This document shows positions 27,755 through 35,756 of a stretch of 35,756 nt of DNA, piece by piece. Position 1 is the stretch's first letter. The number at the start of each line of letters is the position of its first letter. The notes under the pieces were generated by a model. That model had not been told where the DNA came from, ran no database searches, and saw nothing but the letters and a program-made list of their open reading frames with translations. Source of the stretch: a bacterium (GTDB lineage: Bacteria > ARS69); contig JALGZR010000065.1 in NCBI GenBank assembly GCA_025774805.1, forward strand, positions 1 through 35,756. The letters are read 5' to 3'. A program made the position numbers and the translations under genes.

Positions 27755-28444
27755 TCACATGTCCGCGGTCCCCGGTTCGTTCGGCTTCGAGGATGCGCAG
27801 TTCACGATGAGGATCCAGTCCCGCCCCAGTTCGAGCAGATGCGCCCGGTCACGGGGCACTCCCGCGTCGCGGATCAGGTCCTCGACGTTGCGGCGGGAGT
27901 AGAAGCGGACGAAACCGCGGGCGACCAGGAATCTCAGCTTCCGGATCGGGACCCGCCACTCGAATCGCTTCGGGATCGACGCGAAGATCTTCCCCCGGCA
28001 GAGCTTCCGCATCCCGGCCAGGTGCGGCACGGGATTCTCGAGGTAGTCGAAGTATCCCATGGCCAGGACCGCCTCGAACCTCTCCTCGGTGTCGTACCCG
28101 AGGAAGTCGCCCGTCACGAACTCGAAGTCGGCCGGGAGGTTCGCGTTCTTCGTTTCCGCGTTCGCCAGCTCGATCATCGCGGGGGAGACGTCCACGCCGA
28201 CGACCCGGGCGGCGCCGAGCTTGGCCAACGCGATTCCGTACCTTCCCGACCCGCACCCGATGTCGAGCACCGACCACTTGCCGGGAACGGGAGCGAGCGT
28301 GCACACGAGATGAAACCGCTCGACGACGACGGCCCGAAGACGGTCCCGGAGGCGCTGCCACACCGGCTTCCTCGATTCGTAGATCGCGTCGAAGCGCTCG
28401 GCGTCGCGATCGAAGTGCTTACGTACGGTCTCCAAAGAGTTCAT
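27755..28444 (-). CDS. class I SAM-dependent methyltransferase
   Basis: A 229-residue methyltransferase. Motif I is VLDIGCGSGRYGIALAKLG (about residues 59-77), then the acidic GVDVSPAMIELA and the post-motif FEAVLAMGYFDYLE. The C-terminal half holds NPVPHLAGMRKLC and a basic stretch. No substrate can be named. The gene overlaps the polysaccharide deacetylase by 26 bases on the same strand, so the two are very likely one operon and it may act on a sugar, lipid or envelope precursor (inference). Confidence 0.85.
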   Translation of the reverse strand: MNSLETVRKHFDRDAERFDAIYESRKPVWQRLRDRLRAVVVERFHLVCTLAPVPGKWSVLDIGCGSGRYGIALAKLGAARVVGVDVSPAMIELANAETKNANLPADFEFVTGDFLGYDTEERFEAVLAMGYFDYLENPVPHLAGMRKLCRGKIFASIPKRFEWRVPIRKLRFLVARGFVRFYSRRNVEDLIRDAGVPRDRAHLLELGRDWILIVNCASSKPNEPGTADM

Positions 28445-29252
28445 GCTCGAGAACCTCTCCCAGCGGCGCGAACTCGAAGTCGGTCAGCAGGCGTCGCAGC
28501 CGGGACTCGGTGGATCCGAGGTTGAAGTAGTGGGTGATCCACGCCTTCCAGTAGAAGCGCACCCGGGGATGCTTCGGGTCGAGCTCCCAGGGGTGCAGGT
28601 AGAAGACGGCGGGGACGGACTTCTCCTGCAGGGCGAGGAGATTCCCTCGCGTGAAGCGGTAGGGATAGATCCGGAAGTAGGCTCCGCCGGTCACGGGGAT
28701 CGTCCGCCCGAAGAACTCGCGCACGCTCAGGGGGAGCTCCAGGATCGGGCCGGACGGCGTCTCGACGACCTGGGGCGAGCGGGGGAAGTCCGGAATCCCG
28801 TACCGCCAGTTGTGGACCGGGAAGATGCTCGAGTCGTAGCGGAACCCGAGGCCGGCCAGCTCCTCGAGAGCCCAGAACGACTTCCGGGTCACCGAGAAGT
28901 AGGCGGCACGGTAGGCCCGGACCGGCTCGCCGGTTCGCTCGGAGATCGCCTCCGCCGCCCGTCGCGTCTCCTCGCGAAAACGCTCCGGCGACATCTCGTA
29001 GAGCAGATCGTGCGACCATCCGTGGCACCCGATCTCGTGACCGGCGGAGGCGATGCGACGGACGAGCTGGGGATACGACTCCGCCACCGAACCGAGGAAG
29101 AAGAACGTGGCCCGGGTCGAATGCGCGTCCAGGAGATCGAGAAGGAGGCCGAGGCTGCTCTCGAGTCGGGGGGTCGCGGCGCGCCGGACCTCGGGGGAGA
29201 TCGGGATGCCGTCGCACCAGTCCTCCACGTCGACCGTGAATGCGTGACGCAC
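28419..29252 (-). CDS. polysaccharide deacetylase, PEP-CTERM/exosortase locus type
   Basis: A 277-residue NodB-type deacetylase that removes acetyl groups from a polymer of N-acetyl sugars. It opens with FTVDVEDW (Asp8 catalytic/metal pair), has ATFFFLGSVAE, and the metal motif HGWSH (HxxxH) in HEIGCHGWSH. The C-terminal part (FPVHNWRYGIPDFPR, FYLHPWELDPKHPRVRFY) is that of the DUF3473 extension found in deacetylases next to exosortase/exopolysaccharide loci. This fits the PEP-CTERM protein at 24014. Start GTG 29252 is chosen for the family N-terminus; the ribosome site GGAGG is rather far. Confidence 0.88.
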   Translation of the reverse strand: MRHAFTVDVEDWCDGIPISPEVRRAATPRLESSLGLLLDLLDAHSTRATFFFLGSVAESYPQLVRRIASAGHEIGCHGWSHDLLYEMSPERFREETRRAAEAISERTGEPVRAYRAAYFSVTRKSFWALEELAGLGFRYDSSIFPVHNWRYGIPDFPRSPQVVETPSGPILELPLSVREFFGRTIPVTGGAYFRIYPYRFTRGNLLALQEKSVPAVFYLHPWELDPKHPRVRFYWKAWITHYFNLGSTESRLRRLLTDFEFAPLGEVLEHELFGDRT

Positions 29253-29302
29253 GATGTTCCCCGCCTCCGGACCGGGAGAACCGCTGCGTGCCCGCGGTCC
29301 GC

Positions 29303-30331
29303 TCAGCTCTTGTTCAGACAGCACTTCTTGTACTTGCGGCCGCTGCCGCAGGGACAGCGGGAGTTCCGGCCCAGCTTGCCGCCCGTCGGAACGATCATGT
29401 TCCGGACCCGCGAGATCATGTCCTGTTGAAAGACCCGCGCCAACGTCCGGTAGAGCTCCGGGTGCCTGCGCTGCATCGTCCGGGGTCTCTCGAAGAAGTA
29501 CTCGGTGACCACCGCGAAGAACTCGGACTCGTTCGTGAGGGCGTAGGGATTGATGTCCGAGCGCCCGCTCTCGATCTCGGCCATCTTGCGGCGCATGAGC
29601 TCGAGCCACGGGCCGACCGTGCGACGATCCAGTCCCACCTCGGGAACTCCGTCCACGGCGCCGTCCGACTTGTCCACGAGGTGCGCGAACTCGTGGATTC
29701 CCACGTTGCGCCGATCGCGGGCGTTCCGGAACCCCTGGTGAAGATCGGGCTTGGAGAGGATCATCATCCGGTTCATCACGCCGGATCCGACCATGCCGAG
29801 CACGGGCCGATCCTCACCGTCCTCGATCCGGAAGCTTTCGTCGAACCTCGTCGGATAGATCAGGATCTCGCTGATCTGATCCCACTCCCACTCCGGGAAC
29901 CCGAAGATGGGGATGATCGCGCTGGCCGCCGCGAGGACCCGGGTGGTCTCGTCGACCTCGGTCCGGATCCCCGTGATCTGCTTCTCGGCGAGGAAGATCT
30001 TCAGCTCCTCGCGAAAGCGGGACTTGTCCGCCCGGCCGAGCGCGTTGAAGAAGGCGACCTTACCGTGGAGGATCTTGTCCCACTCCGGGGGGAACGGCTG
30101 GCGGCGAATGCGTGTCCGCCTTCGATCACGACGCGTCATCCAGCGATGGAGGACCCACGCCAGGAGAAGGGCGCCGAGTCCCCACCGCCAGTCCGCGTGC
30201 CCGGTCCCCCACGCGATCGTGAAGACGACCGCGCCCGCCGCGCACGCGGTGAAGAACGCGATCCTCGATCGCGCCCGCTCGCCGGTTGGGGCCGGGGCGG
30301 TTTCGGCGTCTCGCCTCGGGGTCTCGTCCAT
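29303..30331 (-). CDS. M90/MtfA-like zinc peptidase with SEC-C domain
   Basis: A 342-residue protein. An N-terminal part with two hydrophobic stretches (about 25-62) is followed by an MtfA-type (M90) peptidase domain: PEWDKILHGKVAFFNALGRADK, the zinc motif HEFAH in VGIHEFAHLVDKSDG, and the third ligand region NESEFFAVVTEYFFERP. The C-terminus has the SEC-C zinc-binding motif RNSRCPCGSGRKYKKCC. E. coli MtfA is shorter, soluble and lacks SEC-C, so this is an unusual fusion likely held at the membrane. Start 30331 has no strong ribosome site. It is 50 bases before the deacetylase gene. Confidence 0.88.
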   Translation of the reverse strand: MDETPRRDAETAPAPTGERARSRIAFFTACAAGAVVFTIAWGTGHADWRWGLGALLLAWVLHRWMTRRDRRRTRIRRQPFPPEWDKILHGKVAFFNALGRADKSRFREELKIFLAEKQITGIRTEVDETTRVLAAASAIIPIFGFPEWEWDQISEILIYPTRFDESFRIEDGEDRPVLGMVGSGVMNRMMILSKPDLHQGFRNARDRRNVGIHEFAHLVDKSDGAVDGVPEVGLDRRTVGPWLELMRRKMAEIESGRSDINPYALTNESEFFAVVTEYFFERPRTMQRRHPELYRTLARVFQQDMISRVRNMIVPTGGKLGRNSRCPCGSGRKYKKCCLNKS

Positions 30332-30614
30332 GGGGCAGGAGAATAGCCGAACCGGGCGTTTTGCTGTCGAGTTTCCGGGGCCGGGTGGGAGCGTTTCGTG
30401 CGTGCCGTGTCCGTCCGGGGTCCGGTGCCGGGCCCTGCGGCCCGGTCTTGTCGTGCGACGGTGGGCGGTGCGGTCCTGCCGCCTGTTCTTGTTGTGCAAC
30501 GCTCAATGGGGGTAGGCTGAGAGCGATTCGTGCCGGTCGCCGGGGATGCGCGGTGGGTGTCGCGCGGAGTGCGGTGGGACGATCGGTCGTGCCGTCCGGA
30601 AGGACCAGCAAGGG

Positions 30615-32378
30615 ATGGAATTGCGTCGACATCCGCTCCTCCACCTCCGGTTGCTGTCGGTCGCCGCGGTGCTCGGCCTCGCCCTGTCCGGGATCGTCTC
30701 TCCCGTCAGGGCGCAGTCGCTCGCGAGCTGGACGGGCGCCCGCGCCGACTACCGGGTCACCGGACCGAGCGGCGTCCGGCCCGAGCTGACGCAGGTAACG
30801 CTCAGTCTTCCGGGAGTGGCGATCCACGACGGACAGGAGCACATCTGGTTCCAGATGGAGGCCATCAACCGCGGGGCGCGACAGTACGCGATCGCGATGC
30901 TCGTTCCCTCGCTCGACTTCCTCAGCGGGGCGCGCGAGGCGGTTCCGGTGGCTCGCTACATTCTCTTTCCTCCGGGTGGGCAACCTCTCGAGTACGTGCG
31001 GAAGGCGACCGGTGAGGCGATGCTCCCCCGCTACGACTTCTGGGAAAGGCTCGTTCCACGAAGCGCAACGCCGGGGGGGATCGGACCGGCCCTCTTCGAC
31101 GAGGGAACCCTGATGGGACGCTCTCTGACGAGAATCGATCAGGGGATGGACGCGCGGTCTCTCCCGATCGAGGACGCGAAGCGTCTCGAGCTCGAACCGG
31201 AGGTGCTCATCGGAACGAGCCGCGACTTCCGCGACGACGGGACGGGACGTCGGCACCGTTCGACCGGCGGTGATGCCTCGGAGGGGCCCGACTACCGGTA
31301 CGTGAGTTTTGATGCCGAGAACTACCGGAGCATGATCGACGCGGGAATGAACTTGTTTCGCATTCGCGCCCCTCATGCGGCGTGGGTGATCGAGGAGCCG
31401 GTCTTCATCGTGCAGCTCGACGGTTTCGAGGACTCGCCCGAGGTCCTCTACCGCAGCAACTACTTTGGGGCAGTGATGTACATGGACGAGCCGATGGTGC
31501 GGGCGGTGGGCACGCTGATGTTCGCGCGGACCGGCAGCGCGAGCGAGGCCGCGACGTTGCAGATCGAGCTGATCCGCGGTCGCATCGAGGGGAGCAACAA
31601 GTACGGATCCCGGCACCTCGATCGTCTGCTTCGACGGGCAGGCTGCGACCTCGGTCCCGGCGAGATCCTTCAGGCGGACTATCCGGTTTGGGAAGCCATG
31701 GCGAGCGGTGCCTGGTACGAGCTCGAGGCCGGGGGGGGAGGGTTCTGTCACGAGAGTCGGATCCAGCCGGAGCGCTTCGCGGAGCTCGTCGAGTCGGCGC
31801 TCGGAGTGCGTTTTCCTTCGGATGTCGTGAGCTGTGTCGACTTCCACCTCTCGCTCTTCACGGGAGCCGCGCGGTGGTTCGAGCGTCCGTGGGGAGTTTC
31901 GATCTACGGTCAGACGGAGGAAGAGGCCGCGGAGATCCTCTTCCCTCGTGCTTACGAGAGGGGCGCTACCTACTTCTGGTTCTGGACGTCGGATGGAGCC
32001 CACCACGTTCCGTTCTCTCGGCAGCTCGAGCTGACGCGTCAGCTTCGTCGGTACATTCGGGAGAACCCGCGGGGGGAGGCGGAAGCGCGGACCGCTCTCG
32101 TTCTTCCCTGGGGTTACCTTCTCGACGACTTCGCCTTCCGGCCGAACTGGAAGCTCAGGAAGCCCGCGCTCTGGGGCAGCGAGAAGCTCTCGTTCGAGAA
32201 CCGGAATTCGGAGGGGGTCAGGTATCGCGAGGTGCTTGCCGCGGCGATGCGCGAGGCCGCCGACCTGCTGCGGGCCGGCGAGAGGTTCGACATTCTGTTT
32301 CTGCAGCCGGAGGAGAGGGCACGCGGGTATGCGCGGGTCCTCCGGGTCCGGGAGACGGGACGGGTGGAGGGGAGATAG
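30615..32378 (+). CDS. secreted protein of unknown function
   Basis: A 587-residue protein with a clear signal peptide (LLSVAAVLGLALSGIVSPVRA, cut before QSLASW). I do not recognise a family. The N-terminal ~200 residues resemble a beta-rich domain (VAIHDGQEHIWFQMEAINRGA). The C-terminal part has GATYFWFWTSDGAHHVPF and ALVLPWGYLLDDF, reminiscent of glycoside hydrolase TIM barrels, which is a weak suggestion only. The start has AAGGG close before. It faces the MtfA-like gene across a 283-base gap in which I see only weak promoter-like boxes. Confidence 0.7.
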   Translation: MELRRHPLLHLRLLSVAAVLGLALSGIVSPVRAQSLASWTGARADYRVTGPSGVRPELTQVTLSLPGVAIHDGQEHIWFQMEAINRGARQYAIAMLVPSLDFLSGAREAVPVARYILFPPGGQPLEYVRKATGEAMLPRYDFWERLVPRSATPGGIGPALFDEGTLMGRSLTRIDQGMDARSLPIEDAKRLELEPEVLIGTSRDFRDDGTGRRHRSTGGDASEGPDYRYVSFDAENYRSMIDAGMNLFRIRAPHAAWVIEEPVFIVQLDGFEDSPEVLYRSNYFGAVMYMDEPMVRAVGTLMFARTGSASEAATLQIELIRGRIEGSNKYGSRHLDRLLRRAGCDLGPGEILQADYPVWEAMASGAWYELEAGGGGFCHESRIQPERFAELVESALGVRFPSDVVSCVDFHLSLFTGAARWFERPWGVSIYGQTEEEAAEILFPRAYERGATYFWFWTSDGAHHVPFSRQLELTRQLRRYIRENPRGEAEARTALVLPWGYLLDDFAFRPNWKLRKPALWGSEKLSFENRNSEGVRYREVLAAAMREAADLLRAGERFDILFLQPEERARGYARVLRVRETGRVEGR

Positions 32379-32634: not shown

Positions 32635-33651
32635 ATGTCGGCCACCGACTTAGAGTCTCCAGCCGCGACGGGGGCACCGGAAACGGCCCCCAGGCTTCTC
32701 GAAGGAGTTCGAGAGGCGACTCGGGTTCGCCACTACAGCCGAAGTACGGAGCGGAGCTACGTGAAGTGGGTCCGCCGTCTCGTCGTGTTTCACGGAATGA
32801 GACACCGGCGCCACATGGGGAGCTCGGAGATCCGAGAATTCCTGACGTCGCTCGCAATTGACAAGTCAGTCGGTGCATCCACTCAAAACCAGGCGCTGTG
32901 CGCCCTTCTGTTCCTTTACAGGGAGGTGCTCGATCAGAATCCCGGGTGGATCGACGACGTGGTTCGGGCGAAGCCGCCTCGCCGTCTTCCGGAGATTCTG
33001 TCCGGGGAGGAGGTGCGAGCCGTTCTGGATCGGATGCACGGGACGCCCCGGTTGATGTGCATGCTGCTCTACGGGGCCGAGCTGAGGCTCATGGAGTGCG
33101 CCACGCTCCGCGTCAAGGATCTGGACTTCCGTAGAAACGAGATCATCGTACGGAGGGGGAAGGGGGGAAGGGACCGGAGAACCATGCTCCCGGGTGCCGT
33201 TCAGGCAAATCTCCGTGAGCATCCATCCAGGGTGAGGGCACAACATCGGGAAGATCTTCGCCGGGGAGCCGGCTGGGTGGCGACGCCCGATGCTCTGGGG
33301 AGCAAGTTCCCCGGGGCGGGCCGCGAGTGGACTTGGCATTGGGCCTTCCCGGCGGCCCGGCGCTATCGAGATCCCGGAACCCGGCAGATACGCCGCCATC
33401 ATCTCCACGAGACCGTTGTTCAGAGAGCCGTCCGGGTAGCAGTGCAGCGCGCAGGCCTCTCGCAACGAGCGACGTGCCACACCTTTCGCCACTCGTTCGC
33501 AACCCATCTCCTCAAGGACGGCTAGGACATTCGGACGGTTCAGGAGCTTCCCGGGCACAAGGACGTAAGCACGACAATGGTTTACATTCACGTCCTGAAC
33601 CGAGGAGGTCGGGGAGTCCGGAGTCCGGCGGATCGATTGTGGGGAGGTTGA
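32635..33651 (+). pseudogene. intI: integron integrase, interrupted by an in-frame TAG
   Basis: A tyrosine recombinase of the integron type. It has the N-terminal SAM-like domain (RHYSRSTERSYVKWVRRLV), catalytic Arg151, Lys176, His282 and Arg285 (HTFRHSFATHLL), and the extra ~35-residue segment unique to integron integrases (about 205-240, with PDALGSKFPGAGREWTW and WAFPAARR). A TAG at 33523-33525 replaces the Tyr expected in the sequence DGYDIRTV. The frame then continues in clear homology through [20 protein letters not shown] to a natural TGA at 33649-33651. The stop removes His308 and the nucleophile Tyr317, so the protein as read is inactive. Confidence 0.85.
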
Positions 33652-33837
33652 TTCCCCGACTTACCCCGATCTGGGTGATTCCCTGTGGCGAGATGTCCCT
33701 GCGCGAGCCATCTGCCCATAATCCCTTTGACCCCAACCTTCTCCCGGCGCGAGAATTCCAGAGCGTACACCCACGTCGCCCGGGGAATGCTGCAATAGGG
33801 GCGGGGTATTCGATTCACCCGGGTCGGTAGGAGAATA

Positions 33838-33844
33838 GTCAGAC
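33838..33844 (+). other. candidate attI core / start of first cassette
   Basis: GTCAGAC lies 20 bases before the first cassette gene and differs by one base from GTTAGAC, the sequence expected from the R'' box (GTCTAAC) of that cassette's attC. The changed base is one of the two T's at the crossover point. It may be a decayed recombination core. Confidence 0.3.
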
Positions 33845-33866
33845 CGATACTGACGGGGAGGACATG

Positions 33867-34643
33867 ATGAATCGCATTCTGCTCATGGTCGCTGTCCTTG
33901 CGCTCGCGAGTCCCGCGATGTCGTCATCGCGCGGTCCCACGGAACGCGTTCTCGCTGACCGGGAAGTCGGTACTCCAGGTGCGGAACTGGCAGGTGGATC
34001 GAGTCCGACGCTCTTCTACTTCGGAAGCACCTTGGGCGGGGAACCCGAAGACTTCGCGGCCCTGGGGTTCAGCGTGACCGTCGCGGACACGGTCGCGGAT
34101 CTTCAACTCACCAATCTGCTGAACTTCGACGTGCTGATCCTAGGTTTCGTCCATCCGGACGATACCCGACTCGGTCCGTACCAGCCGGACATTGAACAGT
34201 ACGTGCTCGTGGGTCACGGCCTTCTGATCCATCAACCCAACGCGCCGGGGGTCATTCGATACGCGCCCACGGGGTTTGAGCTGGAGATCGAGAGTCAGTG
34301 GTGGTGTGGCGTTCCCGGGGGTGGGGCTTCCACGGAAACGGAGGTCGTCTTTCCGGATCACCCTGCAATTGCCGGCCTTCCCCCGGACCAGGTTGGATGC
34401 GACGCCGACCAGGTGGCGTGGATCGGTCCCGCGTATGCCCTGCTCACCCGCAATCTTGAGTGTCTCGACCCCGCGATGGCTGCCGGGACCTTCGGGCTGG
34501 GCCGCGTTGTGTTCGAGACCGGCAATGTGAAGTGCGGGTGCGAGGAGTACTGGATCCAGGTTCTGAACTGGCTCGGGCTCACGGGGCCGGTAAGTGTGAA
34601 GTCGCAGTCTTGGGGAGTGACCAAGGCCCAGTATAGATGGTGA
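33867..34643 (+). CDS. cassette 1: secreted protein of unknown function
   Basis: A 258-residue protein with a signal peptide (MNRILLMVAVLALASPAMSS) and a compact domain (PTLFYFGSTLGGEPEDFAALGFSV, LLNFDVLILGFVHPDD, YVLVGHGLLIHQPNAPG) that hints at a glutamine amidotransferase-like or ThuA-like fold without clear catalytic residues. Two Cys pairs lie in the second half. Start 33867 is favoured over 33864 because of its spacing from GGGGAGG. Stop at 34643 lies two bases before the attC R'' box, the usual cassette layout. No promoter of its own is evident. Confidence 0.7.
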   Translation: MNRILLMVAVLALASPAMSSSRGPTERVLADREVGTPGAELAGGSSPTLFYFGSTLGGEPEDFAALGFSVTVADTVADLQLTNLLNFDVLILGFVHPDDTRLGPYQPDIEQYVLVGHGLLIHQPNAPGVIRYAPTGFELEIESQWWCGVPGGGASTETEVVFPDHPAIAGLPPDQVGCDADQVAWIGPAYALLTRNLECLDPAMAAGTFGLGRVVFETGNVKCGCEEYWIQVLNWLGLTGPVSVKSQSWGVTKAQYRW

Positions 34644-34645
34644 CG

Positions 34646-34780
34646 GTCTAACTTGTGCTTGCAGCGGACGAGCGCCAGCCGCCGTGCCAAGAAGAGCCGG
34701 AGTTCGCGGAAGACGCCAGCGGCCGGAAAGAGCAAGGCGGGTCGCGGGAGCGCTCGCCGCTGAAGCGCAGGGCGTTGTGC
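34646..34780 (+). repeat. attC site 1
   Basis: R'' box GTCTAAC (34646-34652) and R' box GTTGTGC (34774-34780) bracket complementary arms. TGTGCTT(G)CAGCGG(A)CGAGCGC on the left pairs with the complement of the right arm, which lacks the bracketed G and A. Two extrahelical bases in one arm are the hallmark that guides integrase to one strand. The length (135 bases) and paired termini fit the attC family. Confidence 0.82.
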
Positions 34781-34799
34781 GGGATGACCGGGAAGAGCC

Positions 34800-35441
34800 A
34801 TGGGCAAGAAGATGTGGTGTGCCGCGACAGTGAACGTGCTGCTGGCCGTGATCATAGTGTTCTTCCTGATAGCGCTGTCCTCGTCGGTGTCCGGGCGTCC
34901 GCTCCATCCCTTTGTCGTGACCGTGTCTGCCATATGTGCAGCGATCGTAGCGATTGGTTACCAGCTCCTTTCAGCCAGTCGGACCCTTTGGGTTTCTCCC
35001 GGCGAGTTGATCGTCGGGTTCGGAGCTGATGGTGAGTCCAAGACCTGGACGGCGGCGTACGCCCGTGGCTGGCCGGTCGTCCTAGTGCTTCAGATTATCA
35101 CTCTCACATGGCTCGTCGTTCTCTGGCAGGAGCGAGCGCGGTCCGCCCCGCGGTCGCTGGCAGATGTGCTGCTACCGGCTGTCGTGACGTACCTCTTATA
35201 TCGGGGTCTGCGGTACTGGGGCCGAGGCGAGCGAGCTGGAGGTTTGATTGTCGGCGGGTACTTCGCCCTGGTCACGCTCGGGGTGCACGGCTGGCGGTTC
35301 CTTGCAGGAGTGCAGTTCTTTCCGCGGCTCAGAAGCGTGATGCCGGATGCAGCGCTCTCCGATTTGAAGCTTGTGCCGCCAGTGCTCGCTGTGCTGTCGT
35401 TTCTGTTGGTTGCGTTGAGCAGGCCAAGTCCGCACAACTAG
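34800..35441 (+). CDS. cassette 2: multi-spanning membrane protein of unknown function
   Basis: A 213-residue protein with about six hydrophobic segments (near 9-28, 37-56, 88-108, 121-135, 144-162, 190-208). No family is recognised. Its start lies 20 bases after the attC1 R' box and its stop (TAG) overlaps the end of the attC2 R'' box, so gene and cassette limits coincide. GGAAGAG before the ATG is a fair ribosome site. Genes in such cassettes often act in surface or interaction traits, but nothing specific can be said here. Confidence 0.72.
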   Translation: MGKKMWCAATVNVLLAVIIVFFLIALSSSVSGRPLHPFVVTVSAICAAIVAIGYQLLSASRTLWVSPGELIVGFGADGESKTWTAAYARGWPVVLVLQIITLTWLVVLWQERARSAPRSLADVLLPAVVTYLLYRGLRYWGRGERAGGLIVGGYFALVTLGVHGWRFLAGVQFFPRLRSVMPDAALSDLKLVPPVLAVLSFLLVALSRPSPHN

Positions 35442-35527
35442 CCGCTGCAGCTGACGGCGCTACAAACCGTGATAGGCGACGGCTGAGACCGGCCAGGGCC
35501 CCGCAGCTGAGCGGCAGCACGTTGGGG
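35432..35527 (+). repeat. attC site 2
   Basis: R'' box GCACAAC (35432-35438) and R' box GTTGGGG (35521-35527) bracket arms in which GCCGCT(G)CAGCTG(A)CGG pairs with the complement of CCGCAGCTGAGCGGC. The bulged G and A are spaced exactly as in attC1. The R'' box is the perfect complement of the R' box of attC1 (GTTGTGC), as expected if both came from the two ends of one circular cassette. R' has a G where a pyrimidine is usual. Confidence 0.78.
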
Positions 35528-35543
35528 CCCATGGAGACAAATC

Positions 35544-35693
35544 ATGGAAAAGTTGAGAGTTGGCTCTTGCCAATTCCCTGTGACAGAGGACATCAAGGGA
35601 AACGCTCGGTACATCCGTCGTTACATGAAAAGGGCAGCACGCCTAGCAGCCCGTGGCAAAAGTCCCTTCGGACGATCGGGGAGGAAAGGGTAG
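35544..35693 (+). CDS. cassette 3: N-terminal fragment resembling a carbon-nitrogen hydrolase
   Basis: From ATG 35544 the frame reads MEKLRVGSCQFPVTEDI and then NARYIRRYMKRAARL, which resembles the opening of nitrilase/carbon-nitrogen hydrolases. Similarity then stops, and the frame ends at TAG 35691-35693 after 49 residues. The catalytic Glu, Lys and Cys are absent. This looks like a truncated gene in the third cassette, or a new small protein. An overlapping frame from ATG 35531 is open to the window edge and is an alternative. A ribosome site is not evident. Confidence 0.4.
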   Translation: MEKLRVGSCQFPVTEDIKGNARYIRRYMKRAARLAARGKSPFGRSGRKG

Positions 35694-35756
35694 GATGGTG
35701 GCGTTTGAGGCTCACTGTCGACGCGATGGGGGGGATGAGAGATGGCGATGGGCCGT

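Follow-up and report, generated by a model that had tools for sequence, protein, structure and literature searches.

The window, by which we mean the whole stretch of DNA analysed (35,756 nt), corresponds to contig C266 in its entirety, from a metagenome-assembled genome of 5.1 Mb (completeness 96%, contamination 5.06%). At its right end lie an interrupted integron integrase gene, intI, a candidate attI site, cassette genes with two attC sites, the start of a third cassette, and a repeat with which the contig ends. The earlier note on this DNA had described an integron-type recombinase on the + strand, followed on that strand by two attC-like sites with unfamiliar genes between; all of these are present. 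The in-frame stop at 33523-33525, the candidate attI and the third cassette (ORF from 35544) were absent from that description.

The integrase gene and the candidate attI site

The intI pseudogene (32635..33651, +) is open to 33525, beyond which the same frame runs on as far as a stop codon that ends at 33651. Read through its one TAG codon, it matched the profile TIGR02249 with 415.8 bits over profile positions 2-315, where the curated cut-off is 265, and the truncated ORF scored 342.5 bits; the same search gave matches over the cut-off in none of 14 control genomes. The window integrase contains the IntI-specific stretch ALGSKFPGAGREWTWHWAFPA, and alignment also revealed the IntI-specific additional domain. 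Upstream of intI, none of three SOS-box-like patterns gave a match, and no synteny was seen with the corresponding regions of two genomes of the same family (G002 and G003).

The TAG (33523..33525, +) is the only interruption of the frame. It replaces a Tyr codon at a site where the aligned relatives continue to ...TTMIYTHV, and it removes the block with the catalytic residues H308 and Y317, so that the predicted protein ends ahead of the last catalytic His and Tyr and lacks the full catalytic set. The integrases of G002 and G003 have no such stop. Apart from the stop, few near-invariant positions are altered (V121I, G149E), which suggests that the inactivation would be recent. In the collection of 98 integrase rows, ten show a stop, lack a motif or are broken in frame, in some cases solely because the contig runs out.

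Downstream, at the 3’ side of intI, we found a candidate attI (33814..33844, +) with the core GTCAGAC at 33838-33844. It scored higher with a PWM than any other position on either strand of the window (12.1, the next being 9.2). The PWM was built from eleven same-direction relatives with the window left out; in leave-one-out trials it regained the chosen core in 7/11 relatives and fell one base off in an eighth. In the relatives a GTTRRRY-like core lies about 115-280 bases past the intI stop, and in the window the core begins 187 bases past that stop and 26 bases ahead of the cassette 1 ORF, with the usual GTT changed to GTC. As a short-motif match, this attI is a good lead, not proof. Between intI and attI there is also a weak candidate cassette promoter Pc, TTGACC-18-GAGAAT (33727..33756, +; one found, 0.1 expected in shuffles), and the + strand of this interval showed nothing resembling a terminator, so that transcription from intI might run on into the cassettes.

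Taken at face value, the TAG, which takes away the last catalytic block, and the GTC in place of GTT in the attI core suggest that the integron platform of the window is probably inactive. The TAG was called from the metagenome consensus rather than from reads, and it could instead be a sequencing or assembly error or be read through, leaving a functional IntI and an active reverse integron; the rest of intI is in frame and highly similar to its relatives with few odd substitutions, and the same-family integrases are intact. We nevertheless consider this reading unlikely, since TAG is an ordinary stop in this genome (it ends, for example, cassette 2 and the ORF at 30546-32378) and since G149E and the GTC core also point to decay. 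In one survey, moreover, about one third of chromosomal intI genes were pseudogenes (PMC2426708).

The attC sites

A structural scan of the 35.8-kb window returned exactly two attC sites, both with + polarity: attC1 (34646..34780, +; 135 bp) with a structural score of 46.5, and attC2 (35432..35527, +; 96 bp) with a score of 39.0. Both have R''/R' and L''/L' pairing, and in L'' they carry a G and an A as extrahelical bases, separated by 6 bp. The model behind the scan includes R''/R' pairing, spacers and L arms, and allows extrahelical bases in L'' only; it replaced two simpler scanners that gave ambiguous polarity and chance matches. Shuffled sequence never scored above 38 (whole window, 300 shuffles) or above 34 (33653-35756, 2000 shuffles).

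The parse rules of the structural scanner were written after inspection of the window’s own sites, and independently trained covariance models therefore matter here. Two such models, R1 with loops trimmed and R2 with natural loop lengths, were trained on attC sites of other lineages, with the window and same-family sites left out; the 40-site alignment shows strong covariation. R2 scored attC1 at 40.9 bits (E 2.4e-8) and attC2 at 43.8 bits (E 4e-9). R1 gave attC2 39.9 bits, its top match in the 5.1-Mb genome, and missed attC1 because of the long loop of that site. The covariance-model check that the earlier note had called for thus came out in favour of both sites as true attC. Rfam gave no gathering-level match in the window, and attC1 had no meaningful match to plasmids.

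These scores bear on the simplest objection, namely that there is no integron here and an unrelated tyrosine recombinase happens to lie beside chance hairpins. It is true that just two attC sites lie in the window, yet TIGR02249 exceeds its cut-off in the window genome and in no control genome, the attC E-values are near 1e-8 and below, and the shuffles never reached the score of either site; we regard the objection as refuted.

Cassettes, contig end and probable continuation of the array

Cassette 1 (33839..34774, +), with boundaries inferred from the attI and attC core sites, carries an ORF at 33864-34643 that encodes a 259-aa protein with a signal-peptide-like N-terminus and no Pfam or NCBIfam match. 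Cassette 2 (34775..35521, +) carries an ORF at 34800-35441 encoding 213 aa, by eye a membrane protein of no known family, and the stop codon of this ORF falls within attC2. These are the only two complete cassettes inside the window. The start of cassette 3 (35522..35642, +) has an ORF from 35544 (MEKLRVGSCQFPVTEDIKGNARYIRRYMKRAARL...), which is cut at about 35643 by the terminal repeat. By eye this ORF looked nitrilase-like, an assignment that was not confirmed, and it had no PDB match.

The first 114 bp of the terminal repeat (35643..35756, +) end the contig and are 100% identical to the end of another contig of the genome, C149. The repeat is thus present in at least two copies, with the ends of C266 and C149 in the same orientation (L011 1-114), and it is what broke the assembly. 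The 114-bp shared end is the start of a repeat, possibly of an insertion sequence. Both copies begin with CTAG. No match to the repeat was found in four genomes of the same family.

Further attC-bearing sequence beyond the window, as the earlier note had anticipated, is found on contig C120 of the same genome. Exact copies of the motif GCTGAGCGGCNGNNCGTT occur three times in the genome, once in attC2 (C266:35506) and twice on C120 (C120:530 and C120:1076). Toward the left of C120 a single good attC (39.4 bits) is accompanied by several decayed sites, and the eight best-scoring sites there all lie on the + strand. The two contigs have an attC motif in common, and the C120 sites are mostly decayed. 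Among the + strand ORFs of C120 are those for a PEMT/ICMT methyltransferase, a HEAT-repeat protein, a GNAT acetyltransferase and a VOC-fold protein. From the shared motif, we suggest that the array probably resumes on C120, the C266-C120 link being inferred, not assembled. Across L116 1-8400, cassette-type genes on the + strand (PEMT, HEAT, LiaG-like, GNAT, VOC, methyltransferase) are seen amid decayed attC, and the C120 array seems to end near 8.4 kb.

On this evidence, fresh gene capture by the window copy appears unlikely, because of the nonsense codon before the catalytic Tyr, the apparent GTC in the attI core, the degradation of several distal attC sites on C120 and the repeat-interrupted cassette 3; suppression of the TAG, or an integrase acting in trans, would change this.

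With 5.06% contamination, it is possible that C266 was misbinned, though the sisterhood of its integrase with same-family integrases speaks against this. We examined five genomes of the window’s phylum, all of one family, and found IntI in three of them. Elsewhere in the window (28419-29609, -) there is a gene for a polysaccharide deacetylase with DUF3473, with a methyltransferase and a SEC-C-containing M90 peptidase nearby; this type of deacetylase with DUF3473 is often linked to exosortase/EPS loci.

Relatives and the reverse layout

The + polarity of both attC sites and the + strand ORFs after a + strand intI confirm a chromosomal integron whose integrase points toward its cassettes. To place it, we compared 80 named integrase loci and 17 from further genomes. 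Those with clear arrays fell into two sets: one with attC upstream of intI and polarity away from it, the canonical arrangement, and one with attC downstream and intI polarity. The second set includes loci from Acidobacteria, Planctomycetia and Gemmatimonadetes and from the genomes G061, G088 and G003, a distribution that points to a wide occurrence of same-direction integrons across Acidobacteria, Planctomycetes and Gemmatimonadetes. In this set, three loci of Acidobacteria (L021, L022, L029), two of Planctomycetia (L030, L058) and one of Gemmatimonadetes (L053) have intI, an attI-like core and downstream + attC as in the window. Their integrases are 53-63% identical to the window’s and, L030 excepted, have no in-frame stop, unlike the window’s; their attC sequences also differ from those of the window.

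The earlier note had proposed a tree of the integrase with known inverted types. Of the 34 integrases placed in such a tree, those of the window, G002 and G003 grouped within a 14-row clade (support 95/91); eight of its rows are same-direction, none is canonical and one is from Treponema. The same-direction Planctomycetia row L030 lies outside this main clade. A 92-row tree agreed with the smaller one, with L023, a weaker reverse call, also outside the clade and with integrases of Krumholzibacteriia, whose contigs stop before any array, inside the wider clade. A single origin of the reverse layout was neither rejected nor shown (p-AU 0.37).

A close counterpart is G003. It has a closely related integrase and the layout and attC geometry of the window (spacers of 2 nt and 5 nt, two extrahelical bases), but its integrase is intact and its array is homogeneous and much larger. 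Its contig C23 has ten attC in the 8 kb examined, mostly near-identical, C20 has four, and on C352 a single attC, alike in type and polarity, comes after the integrase, which makes at least 15 in total (L118, L119, L013). G003 clearly has a long array of similar attC sites, and is a better subject than the window for study of the reverse integron system.

The same comparison bears on the idea that a canonical integron was flipped by a local inversion in the window genome and that the layout is no trait of its lineage. Inversions can flip intI, and the reverse rows L023 and L030 do lie outside the main clade; at the same time, the identical layout in G003 largely refutes the idea, the window integrase sits in a clade of same-direction integrons only, and the relatives also have attI-like cores downstream of intI, so that we consider a local inversion very improbable. 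We conclude with high confidence that the end of the window is a chromosomal reverse (inverted-integrase) integron, probably a sedentary one and with a platform that is probably decaying, its polarity and gene order being joined by an integrase that falls inside the inverted-IntI clade.

In such a system intI, attI and the cassettes would all lie on one strand. An intact IntI, judging from its family, would bind single-stranded attC hairpins, and would have carried out recombination between the bottom strand of attC, in its folded form, and an attI downstream of its own stop codon. Cassettes would be inserted at attI and read in the intI direction, with expression perhaps by read-through from intI, or perhaps from a promoter in the intI-attI interval. 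In the present genome, with a broken integrase and a GTC attI core, the array would be frozen and decaying.

More tentatively, and with rather less than even confidence, we can picture the reverse layout as an old, phylum-crossing lineage in which integrase and cassettes are transcribed in the same direction through attI, and which the very small phylum of the window carries in several genera, from large and intact (G003) to decaying (the window).

The earlier note had also taken the layout to be rare, known from only a few lineages, and its occurrence in an FCB-like genome to widen the known range. Neither claim found support, given that loci of Acidobacteria, Planctomycetes and Gemmatimonadetes share this layout. 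Chlorobium itself is a member of an FCB phylum. Reverse integrons are a published, named class that includes Treponema, Blastopirellula marina, Acinetobacter baumannii and Chlorobium phaeobacteroides (PMC6557892); the last three share the window’s layout, as published, in other lineages. In Treponema denticola and relatives, whose layout has been described (PMC3607928, PMC7691350), intI is likewise transcribed toward attI, in the direction of the cassettes, and the window differs from them in its host phylum, GC-rich attC, stop-interrupted integrase and GTC attI core. Inverted integrases have been placed as a sub-clade of soil/freshwater integrases (PMC8352920), a review counts them among three main groups of integrases (PMC10500605), and the integron hosts already include Gemmatimonadota and Acidobacteriota (PMC8618304). 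The understanding of integrons is therefore unchanged by this one, ordinary in kind and of known layout. What is gained is a phylum with very few genomes among the hosts of reverse integrons, and, in the decaying window and the large, intact G003, a pair for studying how such systems are lost.

Among the other loci, G088 has two separate same-direction integrons (L019, L020), the integrase of one being partial and that of the other broken. Single attC-like sites with polarity opposite to the canonical one were seen upstream of intI in L061 (near 100) and L096 (near 930), and may be due to chance.
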